IMG/VR virus record: IMGVR_UViG_3300017951_000073
Coordinates: 1-30,175 of that record
Direction: 5' to 3' (one strand)
Source: a virus
Length of the DNA: 30,175 nt
Both the position numbers and the translations under genes were made by a program. This document shows, in pieces, positions 3,078 through 15,201 of the stretch. Each line of letters opens with the position of its first letter. Position 1 is the first letter of the stretch. The notes under the pieces are model-generated. The model was not told the DNA's origin. It made no database searches and worked only from the letters and a program-made list of their open reading frames with translations.

Positions 3078-3538
3078 TACCAGTCTCCTTTACCTGTTGG
3101 TTTGTTTGATTTGCTGTCAGCACTGTACTTGTTGCCATCCATGGCACCTAAAAACACATCGGCATTGAAGCCAAGGTGTGACAACGCTTTGGTTAGGCCA
3201 TCGGTAATAGCCATCTTTGGTGCATCTTCACTCATGCGACCTTTGGCTGAGTCAAAGAATTTACGACAACCAGAGAAGGGGCCGTAAATATTGTCGCGTG
3301 ATACAGTCCAGATGCTTACATCTGCAACGACTGCTGTGTCACCGTTGGCTAGATTGACAAAGCGTGTTTCGTTGAGCCAGCCCCAGCCTTGACCTACTGG
3401 GCCAAACTGTTCTGTAGCTGATCTGACTTGGTACTGTGGATCAATAGCTGTGAATGATCTGGCACCAAACGAGACCTTCTTTAGATATGTTGGATTGGAA
3501 TCTTGTACTGCATTCCATAGCTTCATGTTATCTGACAT
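3077..3538 (-). CDS. Rad52/ERF-like single-strand annealing protein
   Basis: 153 residues. The pattern DPQYQVRSATEQFGPVGQGW (33-52), then GCRKFF, SEDAPKMAITDGLTKALSHL (103-122) and GFNADVFLG follows the signature of phage ERF/Rad52-superfamily annealing proteins: an FGP...GWGW strand pair and a DAxKMAxTDxxTKALxxLGFxADVF helix. Such proteins anneal complementary ssDNA. The gene starts two bases after the end of the YqaJ exonuclease gene, and its AAAGGAG site lies inside that gene's end. Exonuclease plus annealase side by side is the usual two-component phage recombination system. The ERF/Rad52 placement is by pattern and context. Confidence 0.7.
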   Translation of the reverse strand: MSDNMKLWNAVQDSNPTYLKKVSFGARSFTAIDPQYQVRSATEQFGPVGQGWGWLNETRFVNLANGDTAVVADVSIWTVSRDNIYGPFSGCRKFFDSAKGRMSEDAPKMAITDGLTKALSHLGFNADVFLGAMDGNKYSADSKSNKPTGKGDW

Positions 3539-3539
3539 G

Positions 3540-4388
3540 TCAGTTCTCCTTTACTGTGATGCGTAATGCTCCGCGCTTGTCGCGCTTGATGGTAAGAAGA
3601 TCACAGTATACTTCTCGCTCATCATCTCCGACCATAGCTTTGAGATCAGACTTGGCTGACTCAAACAGCTTGGCATTTGTTTCTGTTTCAATGTAGTCAT
3701 GGCATCGTGAGATAAACTCATTGTCGCTGGATGCGTCCCGCCTGACCATGCCATCTACTTTGATCTTGTCTATAGATACAGGCGGTACTGCATTGCTAGC
3801 TGGCTCTTGATCTTGTGATACACACTTCCAGAACTCGACTAGATGTACCTTCATCTGATCAATGTACTTCCAATCTTTTTGTACATAGACTGATTCCCAG
3901 CGGCGATTGCCAAAAAATACTGATAGGTAACAGCCCTTGGCTTGATGCACCCACATGTAAAACTGCATCTGTGGCATGTACATCTTGAGGCAGTTCTCCA
4001 TTGAGTTGCCTTCGTATGTATGCTTGCACTCAATGATCTCGTCTTCATAGACTCTATCAATCCATATAAAACCATCGACTGTGCCTTTTAATGGCACACC
4101 TTCCCAATTCATTTCTGCTGTAGGTCCGCGTGTTTTGGCACCATAAACTTCTTGTTGTTCATTGTCAGAATAAAAACCAGTTACAATAGTTTCACACTCA
4201 TCTGTTGTGTGTTGTTTGGCAAACCAATCTTTATTAAATCGTTCTGTCTGTACGCCCATCTGTACTGGCAGTACATCAGATAGATCATCAGGTATTACTC
4301 TGCCTGTCTTCTCTTGCCATAGTGACAGCCAGTCACCTTCCATGATGCGGCGCATATCGCTACCGCCGATAAAACCTTTGCGTTCCAT
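3540..4388 (-). CDS. YqaJ-family recombination exonuclease
   Basis: 282 residues. Family landmarks are GGSDM (8-12) near the N-terminus, the catalytic acidic residue in GTVDGF (Asp105), and IIECKH with Glu120 and Lys122 forming the PD-(D/E)XK core, followed by YMPQMQFYMWV (Gln140, Gln142, Tyr144). It is predicted to be a Mg-dependent 5'-3' dsDNA exonuclease that makes ssDNA for the annealing protein encoded next. I chose the ATG at 4388 because AAGGAG (4395-4400) sits 6 bases upstream; an in-frame start at 4418 lies inside an operator-like palindrome and is less likely. First gene behind a separate promoter/operator-like site. Confidence 0.88.
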   Translation of the reverse strand: MERKGFIGGSDMRRIMEGDWLSLWQEKTGRVIPDDLSDVLPVQMGVQTERFNKDWFAKQHTTDECETIVTGFYSDNEQQEVYGAKTRGPTAEMNWEGVPLKGTVDGFIWIDRVYEDEIIECKHTYEGNSMENCLKMYMPQMQFYMWVHQAKGCYLSVFFGNRRWESVYVQKDWKYIDQMKVHLVEFWKCVSQDQEPASNAVPPVSIDKIKVDGMVRRDASSDNEFISRCHDYIETETNAKLFESAKSDLKAMVGDDEREVYCDLLTIKRDKRGALRITVKEN

Positions 4389-4406
4389 ATCGTTCTCCTT
4401 TGTTGC

Positions 4407-4435
4407 AAAGTACTGCATATATGCAGTTAGGTCAA
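4407..4435 (-). promoter_or_regulatory. Leftward promoter with palindromic operator before exonuclease
   Basis: On the minus strand TTGACC (4435-4430) is followed 17 bases later by TACTTT (4412-4407), a plausible but weak -10. The spacer holds ACTGCATATATGCAGT (4412-4427), a perfect 16-bp palindrome. The -35 is formed by the last codons of the upstream gene. The 12-bp core TGCA-N4-TGCA recurs at 6338-6349 and 9376-9387, also inside promoter-like DNA. It would let the recombination genes be regulated separately from the upstream part of the operon. Confidence 0.6.
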
Positions 4436-5053
4436 CAGCTTTTTCCTCTGTTGTTCGATAGCGCGAAGCAGTAGCTTGCGCTTGTGTAATCTCCAGTCGA
4501 TGTGTTTGTAGAACTCAGCATATGCAGGCCAGAATGTAGCAGTCTTAGATACCTCTTTGATTGCATGAACAACAATATCTGCTGGGTACTCTGTGAGTTG
4601 CATAGCTATTGCATTCATACGAAATGTATAATCTTCAACCGACTCGCCTGCTGGCTTTACCACCAGCGCGGCCAGCAGAGCGAGTTGGTTGGTAATTTCA
4701 TCTACAGATAGTGAGGCCATAGAAGCGCGTACAGCGCGTTCAGCTTTGTCACACTGCTCTAGCGTATCTAGTTGTATCTGAAAGCCCTGTGTAGTGAATA
4801 CAGCCTCAGTATCAGTGAATCTAGTTTTGGTTTGCTCGACCACTGTTGAGTTGCTGATGGATTCCAGCGAAGAAACTAGGCGCTTGTCTGCCTCTGCTGG
4901 ATTGTCTATTTCCAGTAGTCTTGCCACCGCCGCTTGACGCATCTCTGTACTTAATGCTGTTGCGGCACCAGAGTCGGTATGCTTTTCTGACATCTGCGAA
5001 GACATTGCCTTTGGATTGATGGTGGTCACAGAACCTAGATGCTTCATGCTCAT
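4427..5053 (-). CDS. Phage protein of unknown function, replication-region
   Basis: 208 residues. The N-terminal 78 residues are polar and overlap the preceding gene out of frame. The C-terminal part has the conserved-looking pattern ALVVKPAGESVEDYTFRMNA then LTEYPADIVVHAIKEVSKTA and FWPAYAEFYKHIDW, ending in a basic helix (RLHKRKLLLRAIEQQRKKLL). The YPADIV...FWPxxAE signature is widespread in proteins encoded next to phage replication initiators; a helicase-loader-like or replisome role is possible but unproven. AAAGGAG lies 10 bases before ATG 5053, and I see no better site downstream, which supports the long overlap. The stop overlaps the next promoter. Confidence 0.7.
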   Translation of the reverse strand: MSMKHLGSVTTINPKAMSSQMSEKHTDSGAATALSTEMRQAAVARLLEIDNPAEADKRLVSSLESISNSTVVEQTKTRFTDTEAVFTTQGFQIQLDTLEQCDKAERAVRASMASLSVDEITNQLALLAALVVKPAGESVEDYTFRMNAIAMQLTEYPADIVVHAIKEVSKTATFWPAYAEFYKHIDWRLHKRKLLLRAIEQQRKKLLT

Positions 5054-5465
5054 GGTCGATGTTCTCCTTTAGTATGCTATCGATAGACTGACGTAGATCA
5101 TCATCAGGATACCAATTGTCTGGCACCTGATTGCGTTTCTTTTTAGATTGACTGGTTACTGATAGGTTAGGGTTGCACTCTGCACCAGTACTGGTGCTGT
5201 CTGCACCAGTCGGAAATATTGTGTACAGTGTAGAGCGTCTGCTATTGCCACGCTCTCTGCTAATCCAGCCTTGTTCTTCTAGCCAGTTTAGTTTGCGTGT
5301 AACTGTAGACCTATTCATACATGCGCGTGTAGCTAGTCGATCAAGACTAGGCCAGCACTCATGTGTGTATTCGTTGGCATGATCAGCTAAAATTACCATC
5401 AGCCATTTGGCATGACAGTCTGGTATATCAGCTTGTATCGCTTTCGCCATCAGTGTGAAAGCCAT
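4821..5465 (-). CDS. Helix-turn-helix phage replication protein
   Basis: 214 residues. An N-terminal winged-helix domain (about 15-85) shows HAKWLMVILADHANEYTHEC, PSLDRLATRACMNRSTVTRK, LNWLEEQGWISRERG and then RRSTLYTI. This is the arrangement of phage replication-initiator-type proteins (first strand/helix, recognition helix RSTVTRKL, wing). After a serine/threonine linker comes a basic stretch (SKKKRNQVPDNW) and a C-terminal motif FADVRKAYRLWCRNSIKY, typical of replication initiators that bind origins and recruit helicase. The last ~75 residues overlap the next gene out of frame and turn Gly/Ser/Gln-rich. AAAGGAGAAC precedes the start. Likely the initiator of this polymerase-less phage. Confidence 0.78.
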   Translation of the reverse strand: MAFTLMAKAIQADIPDCHAKWLMVILADHANEYTHECWPSLDRLATRACMNRSTVTRKLNWLEEQGWISRERGNSRRSTLYTIFPTGADSTSTGAECNPNLSVTSQSKKKRNQVPDNWYPDDDLRQSIDSILKENIDHEHEASRFCDHHQSKGNVFADVRKAYRLWCRNSIKYRDASSGGGKTTGNRQSSRGRQAPSFFAGIHQQLNSGRANQN

Positions 5466-5790
5466 TGTTGTTCTCCTTTAGTAATGGCGCAATTTTTGAT
5501 TCAAACACATCGCCATCAAAAATTACAAGCGTTTTCGGTGTTCCTGTTTTGCGTTTATAAAACAGAACATCTCGTACAACATTGAAAGGATTGGGAAAAT
5601 TAGACTTGTCTCTGTACTTGACTTCGACTACCAGTCTGTGTCCTCCGAGTTCCCAGATGATGTCGCCGCTATACTCTCCTCCCAAGCTACCGCTGAGGGG
5701 CTGGCGTTTCGCTTGGAAGCCGAGCGTTTGTAACCAGTTGACGAACCACCTTTCGTGGTAGTTTCCTTTATTGCGGTTTTTGTTTGCCAT
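5428..5790 (-). CDS. PDDEXK-type endonuclease / Holliday-junction-resolvase-like
   Basis: 120 residues. Residues fitting a PD-(D/E)XK core are Glu13 (NYHERWFVNWL), Asp43 in GEYSGDIIW, and Glu56-x-Lys58 in LVVEVKYRDK, followed by a basic RDVLFYKRKTG. Length and motif order fit small archaeal-Hjc-like or phage resolvases that cut branched DNA before packaging. The ATG at 5790 is preferred (GGATGG upstream) over a TTG at 5808. Its end overlaps the start of the helix-turn-helix replication gene by 38 bases. Confidence 0.72.
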   Translation of the reverse strand: MANKNRNKGNYHERWFVNWLQTLGFQAKRQPLSGSLGGEYSGDIIWELGGHRLVVEVKYRDKSNFPNPFNVVRDVLFYKRKTGTPKTLVIFDGDVFESKIAPLLKENNNGFHTDGESDTS

Positions 5791-5960
5791 GTTCCATCCG
5801 TATAACAATCAACACATATTAGATAGTGAGTTACCTCTGGCTCTATTGTAGCTAGTGGCATTACAAAATATTCTGTAAACACACCGCATGTTTCACATGC
5901 GTACTCTCTACCGCTTTTGATTTTTTTTCTTGTGGACTTTGATTTGTAAGCCAAGTGCAT
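5628..5960 (-). CDS. Small zinc-ribbon protein, overlapping neighbours
   Basis: 110 codons. The region not shared with other genes (5791-5907) encodes two CxxC pairs, YACETCG and LICVDCY, about 26 residues apart, a probable zinc ribbon. The N-terminus is basic (YKSKSTRKKIKSG) and overlaps the end of the upstream XRE-like gene. The last ~54 codons overlap the nuclease gene in another frame and are Ser/Thr/Lys-rich. No good Shine-Dalgarno precedes ATG 5960, so the true start could differ. The zinc-ribbon core argues for a real gene; the extent of the tail is uncertain. Confidence 0.45.
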   Translation of the reverse strand: MHLAYKSKSTRKKIKSGREYACETCGVFTEYFVMPLATIEPEVTHYLICVDCYTDGTWQTKTAIKETTTKGGSSTGYKRSASKRNASPSAVAWEESIAATSSGNSEDTDW

Positions 5961-10629: not shown

Positions 10630-10665
10630 TTGTGCGTTGACAAAGGTGTCAGAATTGCGTGATGT
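10630..10665 (+). promoter_or_regulatory. Rightward late promoter-like site before TerS
   Basis: The shared 10-mer TTGTGCGTTG (10630-10639) runs into a perfect -35 TTGACA (10637-10642) that also forms an inverted repeat TGACA-N4-TGTCA (10638-10651). A -10 at 17 bases (TGATGT, 10660-10665) is weak, so an activator or a modified polymerase may be needed. The same 10-mer precedes three other late modules. Confidence 0.5.
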
Positions 10666-10703
10666 TTGGGGGGGAACACAAGGGGGGGCAAGTGAGATTG
10701 AGT

Positions 10704-11075
10704 ATGACTGATGTAGTGAAGTTAACCGAGAAACAGTACGCTCTTGTAGATACACTCGTAGCAGAAGGCTGTAGCATCACAGAGGCGGCTGGCAAAGCCG
10801 GTTACGCAGAGGGTGAAAGCGGTAGGGTCAGCGCCAGCCGTGCTTTGCGTCAGCCGCATGTGCAAGCGTACATGATGCAGAGAGTTGGTGAAACACTCGG
10901 TGTTAATGCTACGACAGCGGCGGCGCGCCTTGTCAGGCTTGCCACGGGGGCCAAGAGTGAGTACGTCCAGCTAGAAGCTAGCAAAGATATCTTGGACAGG
11001 GCTGGGTTCAAGGCCCCCGACAAGCATATGCACTTACACAGTGGTGATATTAAAGTCAGTATAGATCTGAGCTAA
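10704..11075 (+). CDS. terS: Terminase small subunit
   Basis: 123 residues from ATG 10704. LTEKQYALVDTLVAEGCSIT then EAAGKAGYAEGESGRVSASR and ALRQPHVQAYM form the N-terminal DNA-binding HTH of small terminases. The C-terminal part (VGETLGVNATTAAARLVRLA, EYVQLEASKDILDRAGF) matches their oligomerisation/TerL-contact region, with the usual 'ILDRAG-K' end. It recognises the packaging site and recruits TerL, encoded about 2.3 kb downstream rather than adjacent. Starts at 10659 or 10662 are possible but lie upstream of the expected transcript start. The structured region before it is a good pac candidate. Confidence 0.82.
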   Translation: MTDVVKLTEKQYALVDTLVAEGCSITEAAGKAGYAEGESGRVSASRALRQPHVQAYMMQRVGETLGVNATTAAARLVRLATGAKSEYVQLEASKDILDRAGFKAPDKHMHLHSGDIKVSIDLS

Positions 11076-11096
11076 ACTAGCCGAGGGCTAGTTTTT
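11074..11096 (+). terminator. Rho-independent terminator after TerS
   Basis: AAACTAGCC (11074-11082), loop GAG, GGCTAGTTT (11086-11094) with the stem running into a TTTTT tract (11092-11096), overlapping the terS stop codon. It separates TerS from the following mini-gene cluster, at least partly. Confidence 0.8.
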
Positions 11097-11118
11097 GCTC
11101 AGGGGGTGGGGGTCAAAA

Positions 11119-11202
11119 ATGGCAATACGTTACTGGCAAGGTGTCTACCACGAACATAAATGCTTAAAAAGGCTCGCAACCAAATTGAAAATATTTTTTT
11201 AG
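11119..11202 (+). CDS. Possible 27-codon basic peptide
   Basis: An ATG behind a G-rich stretch (GGGGGT) opens 27 codons ending in TAG: basic with a hydrophobic end (CLKRLATKLKIFF). It fills the gap between the TerS terminator and the mini-gene cluster. Support is weak, and it may be a leader peptide or chance. Confidence 0.25.
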   Translation: MAIRYWQGVYHEHKCLKRLATKLKIFF

Positions 11203-11215
11203 CTAGAGGTGCGTC

Positions 11216-11392
11216 ATGATGTTTTCAGACCCGAACAACAGTTTAGTTGTTAGGTTATTTAAAAAGATGCAGCAAGAGCGTGGTTTACAGGCTCAAGCGG
11301 CGAAGACTGAGAACCGCAAAAAGAAGCAAGCTCGTAAGCAGAGGCTTACTTTACTTCGTGGCAAGCGTAGATATGATGATGTAAGGGGTTAG
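11216..11392 (+). CDS. Basic mini-protein, paralogue A
   Basis: 58 residues (57 if the second ATG is used), AGAGGTG upstream. A hydrophobic/basic N-terminus (SLVVRLFKKMQQERG) leads to an arginine/lysine helix (KTENRKKKQARKQ) and the C-terminal motif RLTLLRGKRRYDDVRG. The last 16 residues closely match the next gene, also 58 residues, so the two are tandem duplicates. Strong positive charge suggests nucleic-acid or capsid-interior binding; function unknown. Confidence 0.6.
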   Translation: MMFSDPNNSLVVRLFKKMQQERGLQAQAAKTENRKKKQARKQRLTLLRGKRRYDDVRG

Positions 11393-11394
11393 TC

Positions 11395-11571
11395 ATGTTA
11401 AGAAAAGGTGTACAGTTAGCGGTTCAATACGGCGCTATCAGTCCAAAGTCTGAGGTTGATGCGAAGCAAAAAGTCAATGCAGAATCAAAAAAGAAACGCA
11501 AAGCAAAAGCAGAACGGCGCAAGCGTTTAACTTTATTGCGTGGTTCTCGCAGATATAGGGATGTGACGTAA
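11395..11571 (+). CDS. Basic mini-protein, paralogue B
   Basis: 58 residues, starting two bases behind paralogue A. N-terminus MLRKGVQLAVQYGAISPKSE differs, but a basic helix (ESKKKRKAKAERRK) and the C-terminus RLTLLRGSRRYRDV align with the upstream copy. The stop overlaps the next start (TAATG). A tandem duplication kept in such a compact genome suggests both copies are used. No family known to me. Confidence 0.6.
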   Translation: MLRKGVQLAVQYGAISPKSEVDAKQKVNAESKKKRKAKAERRKRLTLLRGSRRYRDVT

Positions 11572-11834
11572 TGTGCGTTGGTGGTGGTTCAGGCCCAGTT
11601 TATAGTACTGCTGTTTCGGTTGACACTAGTACACAACCCATTAAGAGCAAGTACCCATTGACTGAAGCTCAGAAGAAAGAGAATGCGCGTCGCCGCAAGT
11701 TGCTTGAGCGAAAGAGTTTACTTGGAACTCAAGGCAATAATGATAAAGGTGGTGATGGCAATTTGGGTGGTTCATCAAAAGGCGGCAGTAATTTTGGCGG
11801 GTTTAATGACGCAAGTGGGGGCTTTGGCGTGTAA
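11571..11834 (+). CDS. Small glycine-rich protein (MC-GGG type)
   Basis: 87 residues. It begins MCVGGGSG and has the central motif EAQKKENARRRKLLERKSLL, then a Gly/Asn/Ser-rich tail (GGSSKGGSNFGGFNDASGGF, ending GV). The order 'MC-G..., proline/polar, RR-LL-SLL, GG-GF' matches the small protein encoded before the portal at 14989 and similar small proteins near terminase/portal genes in T7-like marine phages. The RRKLLERKSLL segment also echoes the LTLLRG motif of the two upstream genes. Role unknown; TAATG overlap at both ends. Confidence 0.6.
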   Translation: MCVGGGSGPVYSTAVSVDTSTQPIKSKYPLTEAQKKENARRRKLLERKSLLGTQGNNDKGGDGNLGGSSKGGSNFGGFNDASGGFGV

Positions 11835-12178
11835 TGCGTAGGACACCAGCATGGCAGAGAAAAGAAGGCCAGAACCCTCAAGGTGGGTTGAACGACAAAG
11901 GACGCGCATCTTACAAGGCACAAACAGGCGGCACACTCAAAGCGCCAGTCAAGGGTGCGGCAGACACACCAGAGAAACTGAGGCGCAAAGGAAGTTTCTT
12001 GACGCGCATGGGTTCCGCAAAGGGGCCATTGAAGGATGAGAAGGGCAGACCAACTAGATTGAAGAAGTCATTGGTTGCATGGGGCCACAGTGGTGACAAG
12101 GCTAGCGCGGTTGCTAAAGGCCGTTCCCTTCTAAAGCGTTACCAAAACACAAAGAAAAGGAAGAAAGCCAATGCCTAA
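11834..12178 (+). CDS. DUF6321-like basic protein
   Basis: 114 residues. The start AWQRKEGQNPQGGLNDKGRA followed by SYKAQTGGTLKAP and later SFLTRMG, KGPLKDEKGRPTRLKKSLVA, W matches the pattern I associate with DUF6321 (AWxRKEGKNPxGGLNxKGxxSY ... FxxRM ... SLxxW). Highly basic with no hydrophobic segment. Often found near packaging genes in marine phages; function unknown. It overlaps the next gene. Confidence 0.7.
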   Translation: MRRTPAWQRKEGQNPQGGLNDKGRASYKAQTGGTLKAPVKGAADTPEKLRRKGSFLTRMGSAKGPLKDEKGRPTRLKKSLVAWGHSGDKASAVAKGRSLLKRYQNTKKRKKANA

Positions 12179-12323
12179 TGTCGCGGGAAAATACTACACT
12201 TATACCCCTGCTGGTAAAAAGGCGGCTGAGAAAGCCGCGCAGAGTTTACTTACTAAGCAACAGAGAACGCTTCCAAAGGCTATCCAAGCCAAGATCATTA
12301 AGAAAAAGATGGGGAAAGCGTAA
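12171..12323 (+). CDS. 50-residue basic mini-protein (MPNVAGKYYTYTPAGKKAA type)
   Basis: Starts inside the end of the previous gene and ends in TAATG with the next. The N-terminus MPNVAGKYYTYTPAGKKAAE is the recurrent signature of a small marine phage family (MP-V-GK-Y-YTP-G-KAA). The rest is a lysine-rich helix ending IIKKKMGKA. Translation is supported by the coupling at both ends. Function unknown. Confidence 0.62.
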   Translation: MPNVAGKYYTYTPAGKKAAEKAAQSLLTKQQRTLPKAIQAKIIKKKMGKA

Positions 12324-12571
12324 TGGCTAGGTATCAAAAACATGATGGCACTATCTATGATGGGCCTGTAGTTACTATGCCGGATGGCAGAATTAAGACT
12401 GGCGCAACACTTACTGCTGACTCAGAGCGTGTATTCCCAATGCCAGAACGTGCAAGAGATGAGGATGGTGGGTTTAAATCTGACGATCCTTCTACAGCAG
12501 AAGTAAATGAGGCTTGGCAAGGTGGCAAAGCACCAATCAAAAAGAAGCGTGTAACTAAGAAGAAGGTATAG
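12323..12571 (+). CDS. Small protein of the late mini-gene cluster
   Basis: 82 residues. A beta-type N-terminal half (YQKHDGTIYDGPVVTMPDGR, IKTGATLTADSERVFP) is followed by an acidic linker and a very basic C-terminal tail (PIKKKRVTKKKV). The tail suggests contact with DNA or with acidic protein surfaces. The start overlaps the preceding stop. Not recognised. Confidence 0.6.
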   Translation: MARYQKHDGTIYDGPVVTMPDGRIKTGATLTADSERVFPMPERARDEDGGFKSDDPSTAEVNEAWQGGKAPIKKKRVTKKKV

Positions 12572-12573
12572 TC

Positions 12574-12816
12574 ATGGGTAAAACATTAATGAAGCCAACA
12601 TCAAAAGGTGTAATGCGTAAGTTAGGCAGTGAAGAAGCTCAAGCTAACATTAGAGCAAGAACTAATTATGCAAAGACAATTGGTGAGGCCAGCAAGAAAG
12701 CTAACGAAACAATGACGTTTTCTGGCAAAGCTGACTTTATGGAAAAAGTAAGAAAGCTGGCAAGAAAGCAATATGATTTAGATATTTTCTTTGAAGGCGG
12801 AAAGCCAAAGAGTTAA
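12574..12816 (+). CDS. Small basic protein of the late mini-gene cluster
   Basis: 80 residues: basic N-terminus (MGKTLMKPTSKGVMRKLGSE), helical middle (QANIRARTNYAKTIGEASKK), then KADFMEKVRKLARKQYDLDI and a short end. It begins two bases after the previous stop. No family recognised. Possibly helical and nucleic-acid binding by composition only. Confidence 0.58.
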   Translation: MGKTLMKPTSKGVMRKLGSEEAQANIRARTNYAKTIGEASKKANETMTFSGKADFMEKVRKLARKQYDLDIFFEGGKPKS

Positions 12817-12818
12817 TT

Positions 12819-12986
12819 ATGGCAGTTAATGAAGCTGGCAACTATACCAAACCAAAGATGCGAAAGAGTTTGTTCAATCGCATAAAGGCTGGCAACAAAG
12901 GCGGAGCTAGTGGTCAGTGGTCAGCGCGTAAAGCCCAGATGCTTGCCAAAGCATACAAAGCAAAAGGCGGAGGCTATACGTCTTGA
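12819..12986 (+). CDS. 55-residue basic mini-protein (AGNYTKP...GQWSARKAQMLAK)
   Basis: Short, but with a clear conserved pattern: NEAGNYTKPKMRKSLFNRIK then AGNKGGASGQWSARKAQMLA and KAYKAKGGGY. The same series of motifs recurs in small late genes of marine phages. Lysine/arginine/glycine-rich, no hydrophobic segment. Its last bases contain the TTG start of the next gene. Function unknown; perhaps a DNA-condensing or capsid-lumen protein by charge. Confidence 0.65.
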   Translation: MAVNEAGNYTKPKMRKSLFNRIKAGNKGGASGQWSARKAQMLAKAYKAKGGGYTS

Positions 12987-13228
12987 AAAATCCACAAAAA
13001 TCTTTGGTGAATTGGACAAAGCAAAAGTGGAGAACCAAGTCTGGTAAACCATCTACTCAAGGCCCAAAGGCTACTGGTGAACGTTACTTGCCAGCCGCCG
13101 CTATAAAAGCTATGTCTAGTTCACAGTATGCGGCTTCTTCAAAGAAAAAGCGTGAAGATACCAAGAAAGGGAAGCAATTCTCCAAGCAACCGAAAGGCGC
13201 GGCGGCGATTGCTAAAAGATATAGATGA
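12983..13228 (+). CDS. DUF5872-like basic protein (TTG start)
   Basis: 81 residues. SLVNWTKQKWRTKSGKPSTQ followed by GPKATGERYLPAAAIKAM, SSSQYAASSKKKRED and GKQFSKQPK matches the pattern of DUF5872 (WTKQKWRTKSGK...TGERYLP...GKQF), found in phages and some protist viruses. The start is a TTG overlapping the previous stop (TTGA). Function unknown, strongly basic. Confidence 0.7.
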   Translation: MKNPQKSLVNWTKQKWRTKSGKPSTQGPKATGERYLPAAAIKAMSSSQYAASSKKKREDTKKGKQFSKQPKGAAAIAKRYR

Positions 13229-13419
13229 GTTTTCTACACACACTGAAGGTAGAAGAACGTGACCTTCTTCGCAGAATAGTGAAGAAAGTACACCTTGCTC
13301 ACCACCCAAAAGAATTTTGTACCGACCATGAGGCTGATAAAGTTATTGCTGTTATTGGCCCAGAAGTAATTGATCGCATGATTAAGTTCGGTAAGGATAA
13401 CAAGGTTGACCAGCTTTAA
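13225..13419 (+). CDS. Conserved small protein preceding TerL
   Basis: 64 residues: LKVEERDLLRRIVKKVHLAH, HPKEFCTDHEADKVIAVIGP, EVIDRMIKFGKDNKVDQL. Four histidines plus a cysteine and Asp/Glu residues (HLAHHPKEFCTDHEAD) could bind a metal. The pattern is a frequent companion of terminase large subunits in marine phages. It overlaps TerL by 14 bases. Possible packaging accessory; not demonstrated. Confidence 0.65.
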   Translation: MSFLHTLKVEERDLLRRIVKKVHLAHHPKEFCTDHEADKVIAVIGPEVIDRMIKFGKDNKVDQL

Positions 13420-14926
13420 CTACAAGCCTGATGGCAATGTACTAAAAGCATTTATGAAAGATGATAGTTTCTTTCGTGGCATTCGTGGGCCTGTAGGCTC
13501 TGGGAAATCTGTGGGTTGTTGTGTTGAAGTCTTTCGCAGAGCTTTAATGCAGAAGAAAAACAAAGATGGTGTTCGGCGTAGCCGCTGGGCAATCATCAGA
13601 AACACTAACCCACAACTTAGAACAACCACAATAAAGACTTGGCTTGACTGGTTTCCAGAGGATGAGTGGGGCAAGTTTATGTGGTCGGTTCCATATACAC
13701 ACTGGATTAAGCAGGGTGATCTGGAACTAGAAGTAATCTTCCTAGCACTCGACAGGCCTGAAGATGTCAAAAAGCTCCTCTCCCTTGAACTTACTGGCAT
13801 CTGGATTAATGAGGCTAGGGAGATACCTAAATCAATTATTGACGCATGTACTATGCGTGTTGGTCGTTTCCCTTCTATGCGTGATGGTGGGCCTAGTTGG
13901 TCTGGGGTCATCGCTGATACTAATGCTCCTGAAGAAGATCACTGGTGGCCTATTATGTCTGGTGAAGTTCCTGTGCCGGATCATATCCCGCTTGAGCAAG
14001 CGCGGATGCTAGTCAAACCAGATAACTGGAACTTCTATATTCAGCCAGCGGGAATGGATGAAGTTAATGGAGAAGATGGTTCTGTTGTTGATTACAAGCC
14101 AAACAAGAAGGCTGAGAACGCAAAGAACATGCTTGAAAGCTATTACCCGAATCTAATTCGCGGTAAAACAAAAAGCTGGATTGATGTCTATGTGATGAAT
14201 AAACTTGGCACTATTCAAGAGGGTAAACCAGTGTATCAAGGTTTTGTTACTGAAACACATGTAGCCAAAGAAGAAATACCTATTGCTGATGGCATACCGC
14301 TGTACATTGGAATTGACTTTGGTTTGACACCCGCCGCTGTGTTTGGACAGAAAGTACGCGGCAGATGGTTAATCCAGTCAGAGATTGTAGCTATTGACAT
14401 GGGCATTGTTCGCTTTGCTGAACTGCTCAGACAGGAGATTGCTACACGTTTTGCCAATCAAGAAGTCAAAATTTTTGGTGATCCGGCTGGTGACTTTCGC
14501 GCACAGACTGATGAAAGTACACCTTTTCAAATACTTAGAGGTGCTGGCTTACGAGCAACACCCGCACCAAGCAACTCTGTTGACTTGCGCTTAGAAGCTG
14601 TGTCGTCTTCTTTGAACAAGATGGTTGATGGCAAGCCAGCATTTTTGATTGATCGGCGTTGCCCAACATTAATTAAAGGCTTTGAAGGCGGGTATCAGTA
14701 CAAACGTATGCAAGTATCTGGTGAGCGTTTTGATGACAAGCCAGAAAAAAATATGTATTCACACATCCATGATGCGCTTCAGTATCTGATGCTTGGTGCT
14801 GGTGAAGGTAGACAGCTTATATCTGGGCAGAAACCTTTAACTGCATTCAATGCTAGATCTGAGTTTGATGTGTTTGCAAGGAAGCCAAAGCAACAAAAAC
14901 GTCAAGGCTTATGGGCAAGAATGTGA
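13406..14926 (+). CDS. terL: Terminase large subunit
   Basis: 506 residues, TTG start with AAGG upstream. ATPase: Walker A GPVGSGKS (28-35), Walker B GIWINE (131-136, Glu136 catalytic). The coupling/linker region around residues 165-180 reads GVIADTNAPEEDHWW. Nuclease (RNase H fold): Asp304 in YIGIDFGLTP, Asp359/Asp363 in FGDPAGDFR, Asp456 in HIHDALQY. This is the motor that packages DNA through the portal and cuts it at the end of each round. The length is usual. It abuts the conserved TTGTGCGTTG site that opens the portal module. Confidence 0.95.
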   Translation: MTSFNYKPDGNVLKAFMKDDSFFRGIRGPVGSGKSVGCCVEVFRRALMQKKNKDGVRRSRWAIIRNTNPQLRTTTIKTWLDWFPEDEWGKFMWSVPYTHWIKQGDLELEVIFLALDRPEDVKKLLSLELTGIWINEAREIPKSIIDACTMRVGRFPSMRDGGPSWSGVIADTNAPEEDHWWPIMSGEVPVPDHIPLEQARMLVKPDNWNFYIQPAGMDEVNGEDGSVVDYKPNKKAENAKNMLESYYPNLIRGKTKSWIDVYVMNKLGTIQEGKPVYQGFVTETHVAKEEIPIADGIPLYIGIDFGLTPAAVFGQKVRGRWLIQSEIVAIDMGIVRFAELLRQEIATRFANQEVKIFGDPAGDFRAQTDESTPFQILRGAGLRATPAPSNSVDLRLEAVSSSLNKMVDGKPAFLIDRRCPTLIKGFEGGYQYKRMQVSGERFDDKPEKNMYSHIHDALQYLMLGAGEGRQLISGQKPLTAFNARSEFDVFARKPKQQKRQGLWARM

Positions 14927-14988: not shown

Positions 14989-15201
14989 ATGTGTACAAGT
15001 AGACCACCAGCACCACCACCACCTGATCCAAACATTGCTTTACAGCAACAGGCTCAGAAGGCAGAAGCTACTGCTTCAAAGAAAGAAGCTAAGGCTAAAC
15101 AGCTAACATCAACAGTTTCTCGTATGCGCGGCGGCAAAGGTCGTAGATCTTTGATTAAGAGTTCAAGCGGCGGAATGGGTTTCTATAGCGAGTATTTGTA
15201 A
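14989..15201 (+). CDS. Small protein preceding the portal (proline/GG-rich)
   Basis: 70 residues: MCTSRPPAPPPPDPNIALQQ, a charged helix (KAEATASKKEAKAKQLTSTV), then RMRGGKGRRSLIKSSSGGMG, FYSEYL. It is the usual small gene before the portal in T7-like marine phages and is related in layout to 11571-11834. TAGGAG lies upstream; the stop overlaps the portal start. Role unknown. Confidence 0.65.
   Translation: MCTSRPPAPPPPDPNIALQQQAQKAEATASKKEAKAKQLTSTVSRMRGGKGRRSLIKSSSGGMGFYSEYL

Follow-up and report, generated by a model that had tools for sequence, protein, structure and literature searches.

The TerS-TerL interval of the window

The stretch of DNA analysed here (the window) is a virus record of 30,175 bases, IMG/VR record IMGVR_UViG_3300017951_000073; among named phages, Pelagibacter phage EXVC031P Hodr is closest to it. 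An earlier note on this DNA described a run of ten overlapping open reading frames (ORFs) between the terminase genes TerS and TerL and proposed that their products could act together in DNA packaging, condensation or host takeover. Analysis of positions 11216-13419 confirmed the presence of ten ORFs on the + strand, here named o1 to o10, with products of 50 to 114 amino acids (aa). The ten ORFs are not one unit. Three of them, o4, o8 and o9, form one module that is gained, lost and relocated en bloc, and the interpretation as a ten-gene packaging set, partly supported by the data below, is too broad.

TerS bounds the run on the upstream side (10659-11075, + strand; Terminase_2, Pfam PF03592 at 1.3e-9; phrog_51 and phrog_2538) and TerL on the downstream side (13406-14926, + strand; phrog_2 at 4.2e-21 and phrog_10250 at 2.5e-11), the start of TerL overlapping the end of o10 by 14 nucleotides (nt). 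From o1 to TerL, the spacing between neighbouring ORFs ranges from -14 to +2 nt; the sole gap, of 140 nt, separates TerS from o1. Between 11216 and 13419, 99.7% of the + strand and 33% of the - strand are taken up by ORFs of 50 aa or longer, while coverage in 200 dinucleotide-preserving shuffles averaged 28% and reached 61% at most. Comparing the window with 11 relatives yielded ratios of nonsynonymous to synonymous change (pN/pS) of 0.07-0.4 for o4, o5, o8, o9 and o10, of 0.19-0.60 for o6 and of about 0.5-0.7 for o3 and o7 (0.11-0.24 for TerL, for comparison). No relatives of o1 and o2 were found among the 11 compared sequences. The spacing, the coding density and the selection data confirm that the ten ORFs are real genes, under purifying selection wherever relatives exist.

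The portrayal of the products as mostly very basic and glycine-rich applies to part of the set. Six proteins (o1, o2, o4, o5, o8 and o9) carry a net charge of +0.20 to +0.24 per residue and o7 is mildly basic (+0.11), whereas o3, o6 and o10 are near neutral; for the window's 23 remaining genes the median is -0.014 and the maximum +0.114 per residue. Glycine content is high in o3 (21%), o8 (15%) and o4 (12%) but not in the other seven. Scans of the region for promoters and terminators returned nothing above shuffled sequences. A stem-loop-like sequence (ACTAGCC-GAG-GGCTAGT-TTTT) was seen by eye after TerS, within 11069-11215, the terminator scan being silent on it. Along with the gap that follows TerS, it suggests that TerS may be transcribed separately from o1 through TerL.

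o4, o8 and o9: a split domain and its partner

The o8 gene (12819-12986, + strand, 55 aa; piece S1 of the module) carries the signature AGNYTKP..GQWSARK..GGGY and matches phrog_17747 at 3.3e-31. Its neighbour o9 (12983-13228, + strand, 81 aa; piece S2) matches phrog_14910 at 8.2e-30 and begins with a TTG codon that overlaps the o8 stop by 4 nt. The locus set used for mapping all ORF profiles consisted of 80 relatives of TerL (79-97% identity) and 80 relatives of o8, 160 loci in all (individual loci are given L numbers below). The order o8 then o9, on the same strand, is found in 134 of 137 places, with a median spacing of 18 nt; the remaining three o8 places end within 466 nt of a contig edge. 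In the 50,697 named phage records, o8 has 17 matches, o9 has 19 and both occur in 16, the carriers being HMO-2011/CRP-type phages, pelagiphages of 34-55 kilobases (kb) and MEP402, which is classed in the Zobellviridae. Hodr has o8 and o9 fused into a single ORF of 132 aa.

Neither o8 nor o9 matches Pfam DUF5872 (PF19197) at E<1, and a direct match is equally lacking for o9 of HTVC034P and MEP402, for the fused Hodr protein and for the o8-bearing HMO-2011 gp63. The kinship is reached through intermediates. One bridge protein, L317 (MAKPTNPKLYARIKAKVKARVKKWPSAYASGQLVREYKAAGGGYT), is linked to the o8 family by a match at 2.5e-5, to the cyanophage VWPSAYAS domain by one at 3e-4 and to Pfam DUF5872 (positions 1-38) by one at 9e-12; positions 48-111 of the same Pfam family match o9-like ORFs of L319 and L261. 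In single-sequence phmmer searches a second bridge, a protein of the L277 type, hits o9 at ~1e-6 and reaches the cyanophage-type SLRD domain at ~1e-11; an iterated profile takes in o9 and the SLRD domain alike. As judged from these sequence matches, o8 and o9 are the N- and C-terminal halves of a domain of the DUF5872 type, each encoded by its own gene, with the two genes overlapping. The DUF5872-like member announced in the earlier note can thus be recognized in the pair by way of intermediates, though not by a direct Pfam match of o9. The overlap of the two genes would favour joint synthesis, and the halves probably assemble with each other.

Two observations concern the pair itself. In comparison with L008, synonymous divergence is higher in o8/o9 (0.64-0.76) than in the flanking o4 and o10 (0.28-0.35), a hint of cassette exchange by recombination across 12819-13228. 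L313 contains an ORF of 882 aa (3299-5944) that ends in fused o8-like and o9-like domains, lies immediately upstream of a DUF6321 gene and shows a weak match to ribosome modulation factor (PF04957, 0.0055), under the cut-off.

The third piece, o4 (11834-12178, + strand, 114 aa; piece S3), is a full-length member of DUF6321 by profile match, as the earlier note had anticipated: it scores 93.9 bits against PF19846 (cut-off 28.5; 9.6e-27) over profile positions 2-72 of 72, and it also belongs to phrog_4689. Of the 50,697 named phage records, 483 contain DUF6321, and most of these are cyanophages; our literature search found no paper on the family. A lone DUF6321 gene sits between the scaffold and major capsid genes in the Autographiviridae records P-SCSP2, HTVC142P and Ran. 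When the nearest long neighbours of DUF6321 in 80 further loci were scanned blind, head scaffold or assembly proteins (11) and major head proteins (9) ranked among the commonest named families, tail and other proteins being seen as well. An o8- or o9-type piece lay within 3 kb of DUF6321 in 18 of these 80 loci.

Among the 44 complete TerS-TerL intervals selected through TerL, 32 contain o4, o8 and o9, 11 contain none of the three and one contains o4 alone, an all-or-none pattern in 43 of 44. L030 retains o4 and has no o8 across 34 kb. A quick tree built from TerL has the set switching state five to six times, at least four of these switches being forced by well-supported branches. In two lineages lacking the set in the interval, its pieces turn up on the same contig at a distance of about 10 kb, within a lysis cassette: as o4-o8-o9 in L044, and as o8-o9-o5 in L032, where a DUF6321 match under the Pfam cut-off lies about 0.9 kb from o8. 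Other lineages without the set in the interval are too fragmentary for judging relocation. Strict linkage of o4, o8 and o9 to TerL therefore fails, the set being missing in 11 of the 44 intervals and placed elsewhere in the contig in two such lineages.

The same pieces recur beside an unrelated terminase and within a single protein. MEP402 has the order DUF6321-o8-o9-TerL, with a TerL that shows no detectable kinship to that of the window (E 0.009). All three pieces are found on one chain in 38 cyanomyovirus ORFs, a count that is not a frequency, since these ORFs came from loci fetched with such a protein. The fused cyanomyovirus gene comes after gp16 (TerS); in P-HM2, the DUF6321 gene follows gp16 and precedes gp17. 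TerS lies upstream in 37 of 54 loci matching DUF6321 and is lacking in one, the upstream end being cut in the other 16. The link of o4/o8/o9 with terminase genes is thus partial: it holds in the interval of the window's clade, in MEP402 and in the cyanomyovirus fusions, the module residing in lysis or tail regions elsewhere. Loci with o8, o9 or DUF6321 were also seen in contigs of metagenome-assembled genomes labelled as bacteria or archaea (L337-L348), several of which resemble phage contigs binned with their hosts (TerS or portal genes in some).

The o10 partner gene and the accessory ORFs

Strict linkage to TerL is met by o10 alone. This gene (13225-13419, + strand, 64 aa, neutral) was found in all 77 TerL loci having more than 250 nt upstream, and it would encode a small protein always produced with TerL.

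The remaining six ORFs, o1, o2, o3, o5, o6 and o7, are patchy accessory inserts. The first two, o1 (11216-11392, + strand, 58 aa, isoelectric point (pI) 11.5) and o2 (11395-11571, + strand, 58 aa, pI 11.3), are paralogues sharing the motif LTLLRG.RRY.DV, with a Smith-Waterman score of 83 against a maximum of 58 in 1000 shuffles. The two (11216-11571), in which the motif is C-terminal, arose from an orphan gene by tandem duplication; no relatives of either were found among the 160 loci, and o1 is classed as a lineage-specific accessory. The fast-evolving, Gly-rich o3 (11571-11834, + strand, 87 aa, beginning with MC) occurs in 13 loci. The very basic o5 (12171-12323, + strand, 50 aa, YTPAGKKAA...LPKAIQ) is found in 57 loci and o6 (12323-12571, + strand, 82 aa, near-neutral with a K-rich C-terminus) in 59; o5 also adjoins the relocated module in L354. 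Two loci have o7 (12574-12816, + strand, 80 aa), for which there is one distant relative (L015). Beyond the run, a small MC...RRSLI gene occupies 14989-15201, with TerL on one side and portal on the other; in L051, L068, L070 and L071 one ORF is matched twice by the profile of this gene. Kinship between this gene and o3 was considered and not accepted: the score exceeded 20 shuffles, yet the alignment reduced to one column.

The length of the TerS-TerL interval varies from 270 to 3303 nt across relatives, and the gp16-gp17 interval of cyanophages was described by Sullivan et al. as a hotspot for variable genes (PMC3037559). One could therefore view the whole run as a hotspot of unrelated small accessory genes, whose co-occurrence reflects shared inheritance and local exchange and not joint function. 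The patchiness of the six ORFs agrees with this explanation, which holds for them. It is largely refuted for o4, o8 and o9, which travel jointly, even beyond the interval, turn up beside unrelated terminases and occur fused; as an account of the entire run, we regard it as very improbable. The patchy, unlinked pattern by which the earlier note proposed to judge its own idea is thus seen in six ORFs and neither in o4/o8/o9 nor in o10, and the notion of a single functional set of ten is rejected. The recurrence of several of the ORFs in marine phages, where they had stayed undescribed, was correctly noted. The run would be best described as a variable interval between TerS and TerL that contains a core, made of o10 and the o4/o8/o9 module, into which the six other ORFs have been inserted.

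Possible roles of the module and comparison with known systems

Clues to nucleic-acid binding come from the charge of the module proteins and from chromosomal relatives. Fused o8-o9 genes are found in the chromosomes of Acetobacteraceae (19 of 150 sampled genomes). Among 12 such fusions (L351, L352, L366-L375), 11 have a Rho_N-like end (best 3e-7), six match DUF5872 directly (best 5e-7) and one, L375, has a long K/A-rich tail resembling histone-H1-type bacterial proteins. A DUF3140 match was seen in one of the 12. Charge and the Rho_N-like or H1-like parts of these relatives make DNA binding or condensation by the module plausible. AlphaFold predicts folded models for o4 and o9 (predicted local distance difference test scores, pLDDT, of 91 and 93), which argues that disordered protamine-like peptides are unlikely. 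Five entries of a viral structure library, none of them named, match o9 with E values of about 0.001 or lower.

We tentatively favour a reading, which we would place a little short of an even chance, in which the module, mobile and expressed late, consists of small, basic, folded proteins that most likely bind nucleic acid and work on phage DNA at about the time of packaging and head filling. The proteins would coat or compact the concatemer or the packaged genome, and may be carried inside the capsid. In a more specific form, which is rather unlikely, DUF5872 (split or fused) and DUF6321 would make up a portable viral chromatin-like module, coating or compacting phage DNA at packaging or in the capsid.

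Location, together with one virion proteome, suggests an involvement of the module in packaging or in the head. In S-CREM2, gp137 was detected in purified virions with 4 unique peptides and 4.1% coverage (PMC10665884, Table 3); this protein has DUF6321 at its C-terminal end and its gene lies between TerS and TerL. In S-SZBM1, a small hypothetical protein, S-SZBM1_195, has the third-highest exponentially modified protein abundance index (emPAI) in the virion table (PMC9146016), indicating that small genes of the TerS-TerL interval can yield abundant virion proteins. The gene for S-SZBM1_195 (L256, 725-988) is positioned immediately after TerS. No virion proteomes of HMO-2011 or Hodr were found in the literature. 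The S-CREM2 detection, the folded models and the scaffold-to-capsid position of DUF6321 in the three Autographiviridae records are also what one would expect if the proteins were minor head or internal virion components whose basic charge merely tolerates DNA and which take no part in condensing it. The DUF6321 protein missing from S-SZBM1 virions and the existence of a chromosomal o8-o9 fusion family without phage context speak against that explanation, and we consider it quite unlikely.

In HTVC033P, as in HMO-2011/CRP types, HTVC034P, Lederberg, L032 and L044, the module is found within or close to the lysis region; endolysin-like and membrane-protein genes adjoin it in HMO-2011/CRP types, HTVC034P, Lederberg, L032 and L044. 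That it serves lysis, as a group of small cationic proteins working with holin and endolysin genes, is nonetheless highly improbable: the sequences lack membrane-protein character, in the window's clade, MEP402, cyanomyoviruses and Autographiviridae the module adjoins genes for terminase, scaffold or capsid, and the chromosomal relatives carry Rho_N. These last relatives bear on yet another possibility, namely that the module binds nucleic acid but targets the host, through late remodelling of the nucleoid or through control of RNA or transcription. The Rho_N or H1-like tails, the strong positive charge and the many phages in which the module lies outside the packaging region are in line with such a role. 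Conversely, the records seen place the module always with late genes and never with early ones, and DUF6321 is repeatedly found with scaffold, capsid and terminase genes and once in virions; on balance, we deem a host target unlikely.

Several observations weigh against an action on phage DNA at packaging and have to be set beside the evidence in its favour. The lysis-side location of the module in many phages implies that the TerS-TerL position is not essential, and the hotspot character of the gp16-gp17 interval makes position there weak evidence. S-SZBM1_192, a DUF6321 protein likewise encoded in the TerS-TerL interval, is the one missing from the S-SZBM1 virion table (PMC9146016). The fusion protein shown in full reaches 21.5 bits against Rho_N, with a Pfam cut-off of 24.9. 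Rho_N, a domain of the transcription termination factor, binds RNA as well. Comparison of the o4 and o9 models with solved structures gave nothing convincing (no Foldseek hit at E <0.001, VIA Z of 4.6 at most). Finally, the o8 profile scores 7.8 against the cyanophage VWPSAYAS domain, under shuffles, and the o9 profile 13.7 against the SLRD domain, exceeded by 2 of 20 shuffles; these direct comparisons not being significant, homology with the cyanophage domains depends on the intermediates. No nucleoid-protein or DNA-binding domain was found in the ten ORFs by Pfam, and a sequence search of the PDB returned no convincing solved relative (the match to 2c4i, at E 0.036, was taken as chance).

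Proteins of the o8/o9 type occur in pelagiphages, roseophages, SAR116 phages and methylophages. Three families that had no name can now be treated as one portable module, with two of them making up a single domain; for the ocean viruses concerned, which are very abundant, this brings scattered "hypothetical proteins" under one testable hypothesis. If the chromatin-like reading is true, ocean viruses would have in these proteins a common, so far undescribed system for handling DNA, one that unrelated marine phages share and that is akin to bacterial nucleoid-type proteins.

The resemblance to the latter is carried by the chromosomal o8-o9 fusions, whose ends are of the H1-like or SAP/Rho_N-like kind known from bacterial nucleoid proteins, whereas the phage proteins of the window have neither an H1-like tail nor a Rho_N domain. 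With respect to DUF5872 (PF19197), o8 corresponds to positions 1-38 and o9 to about 48-111, through L317, L319, L261 and L313; the window has two overlapping ORFs where Hodr and the Acetobacteraceae have a single chain. A DUF5872 protein has also been listed for the algal giant virus CpV-BQ1 (PMC12085832). Both o8 and o9 are clear full-length members of phrog_17747 and phrog_14910, respectively, and the library is silent on their pairing and on the relation to DUF5872. Within DUF6321 (PF19846, phrog_4689), o4 is free-standing and has an extra C-terminal helix, while the cyanomyovirus DUF6321 is the C-terminal domain of larger proteins. The closest parallel in T4-like phages is the T4-GC0119 protein (S-P4 gp060, P-HM2 PHM2_112, S-SSM7 SSSM7_236), which carries DUF6321 and is encoded after the gp16 TerS. 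The S-P4 type combines DUF6321 with o9-like and o8-like domains, part of which P-HM2 and S-SSM7 lack. There, o9-like, o8-like and DUF6321 domains follow one another on a single chain of several hundred residues, whereas the window encodes them in separate genes, in the order o4-o8-o9.

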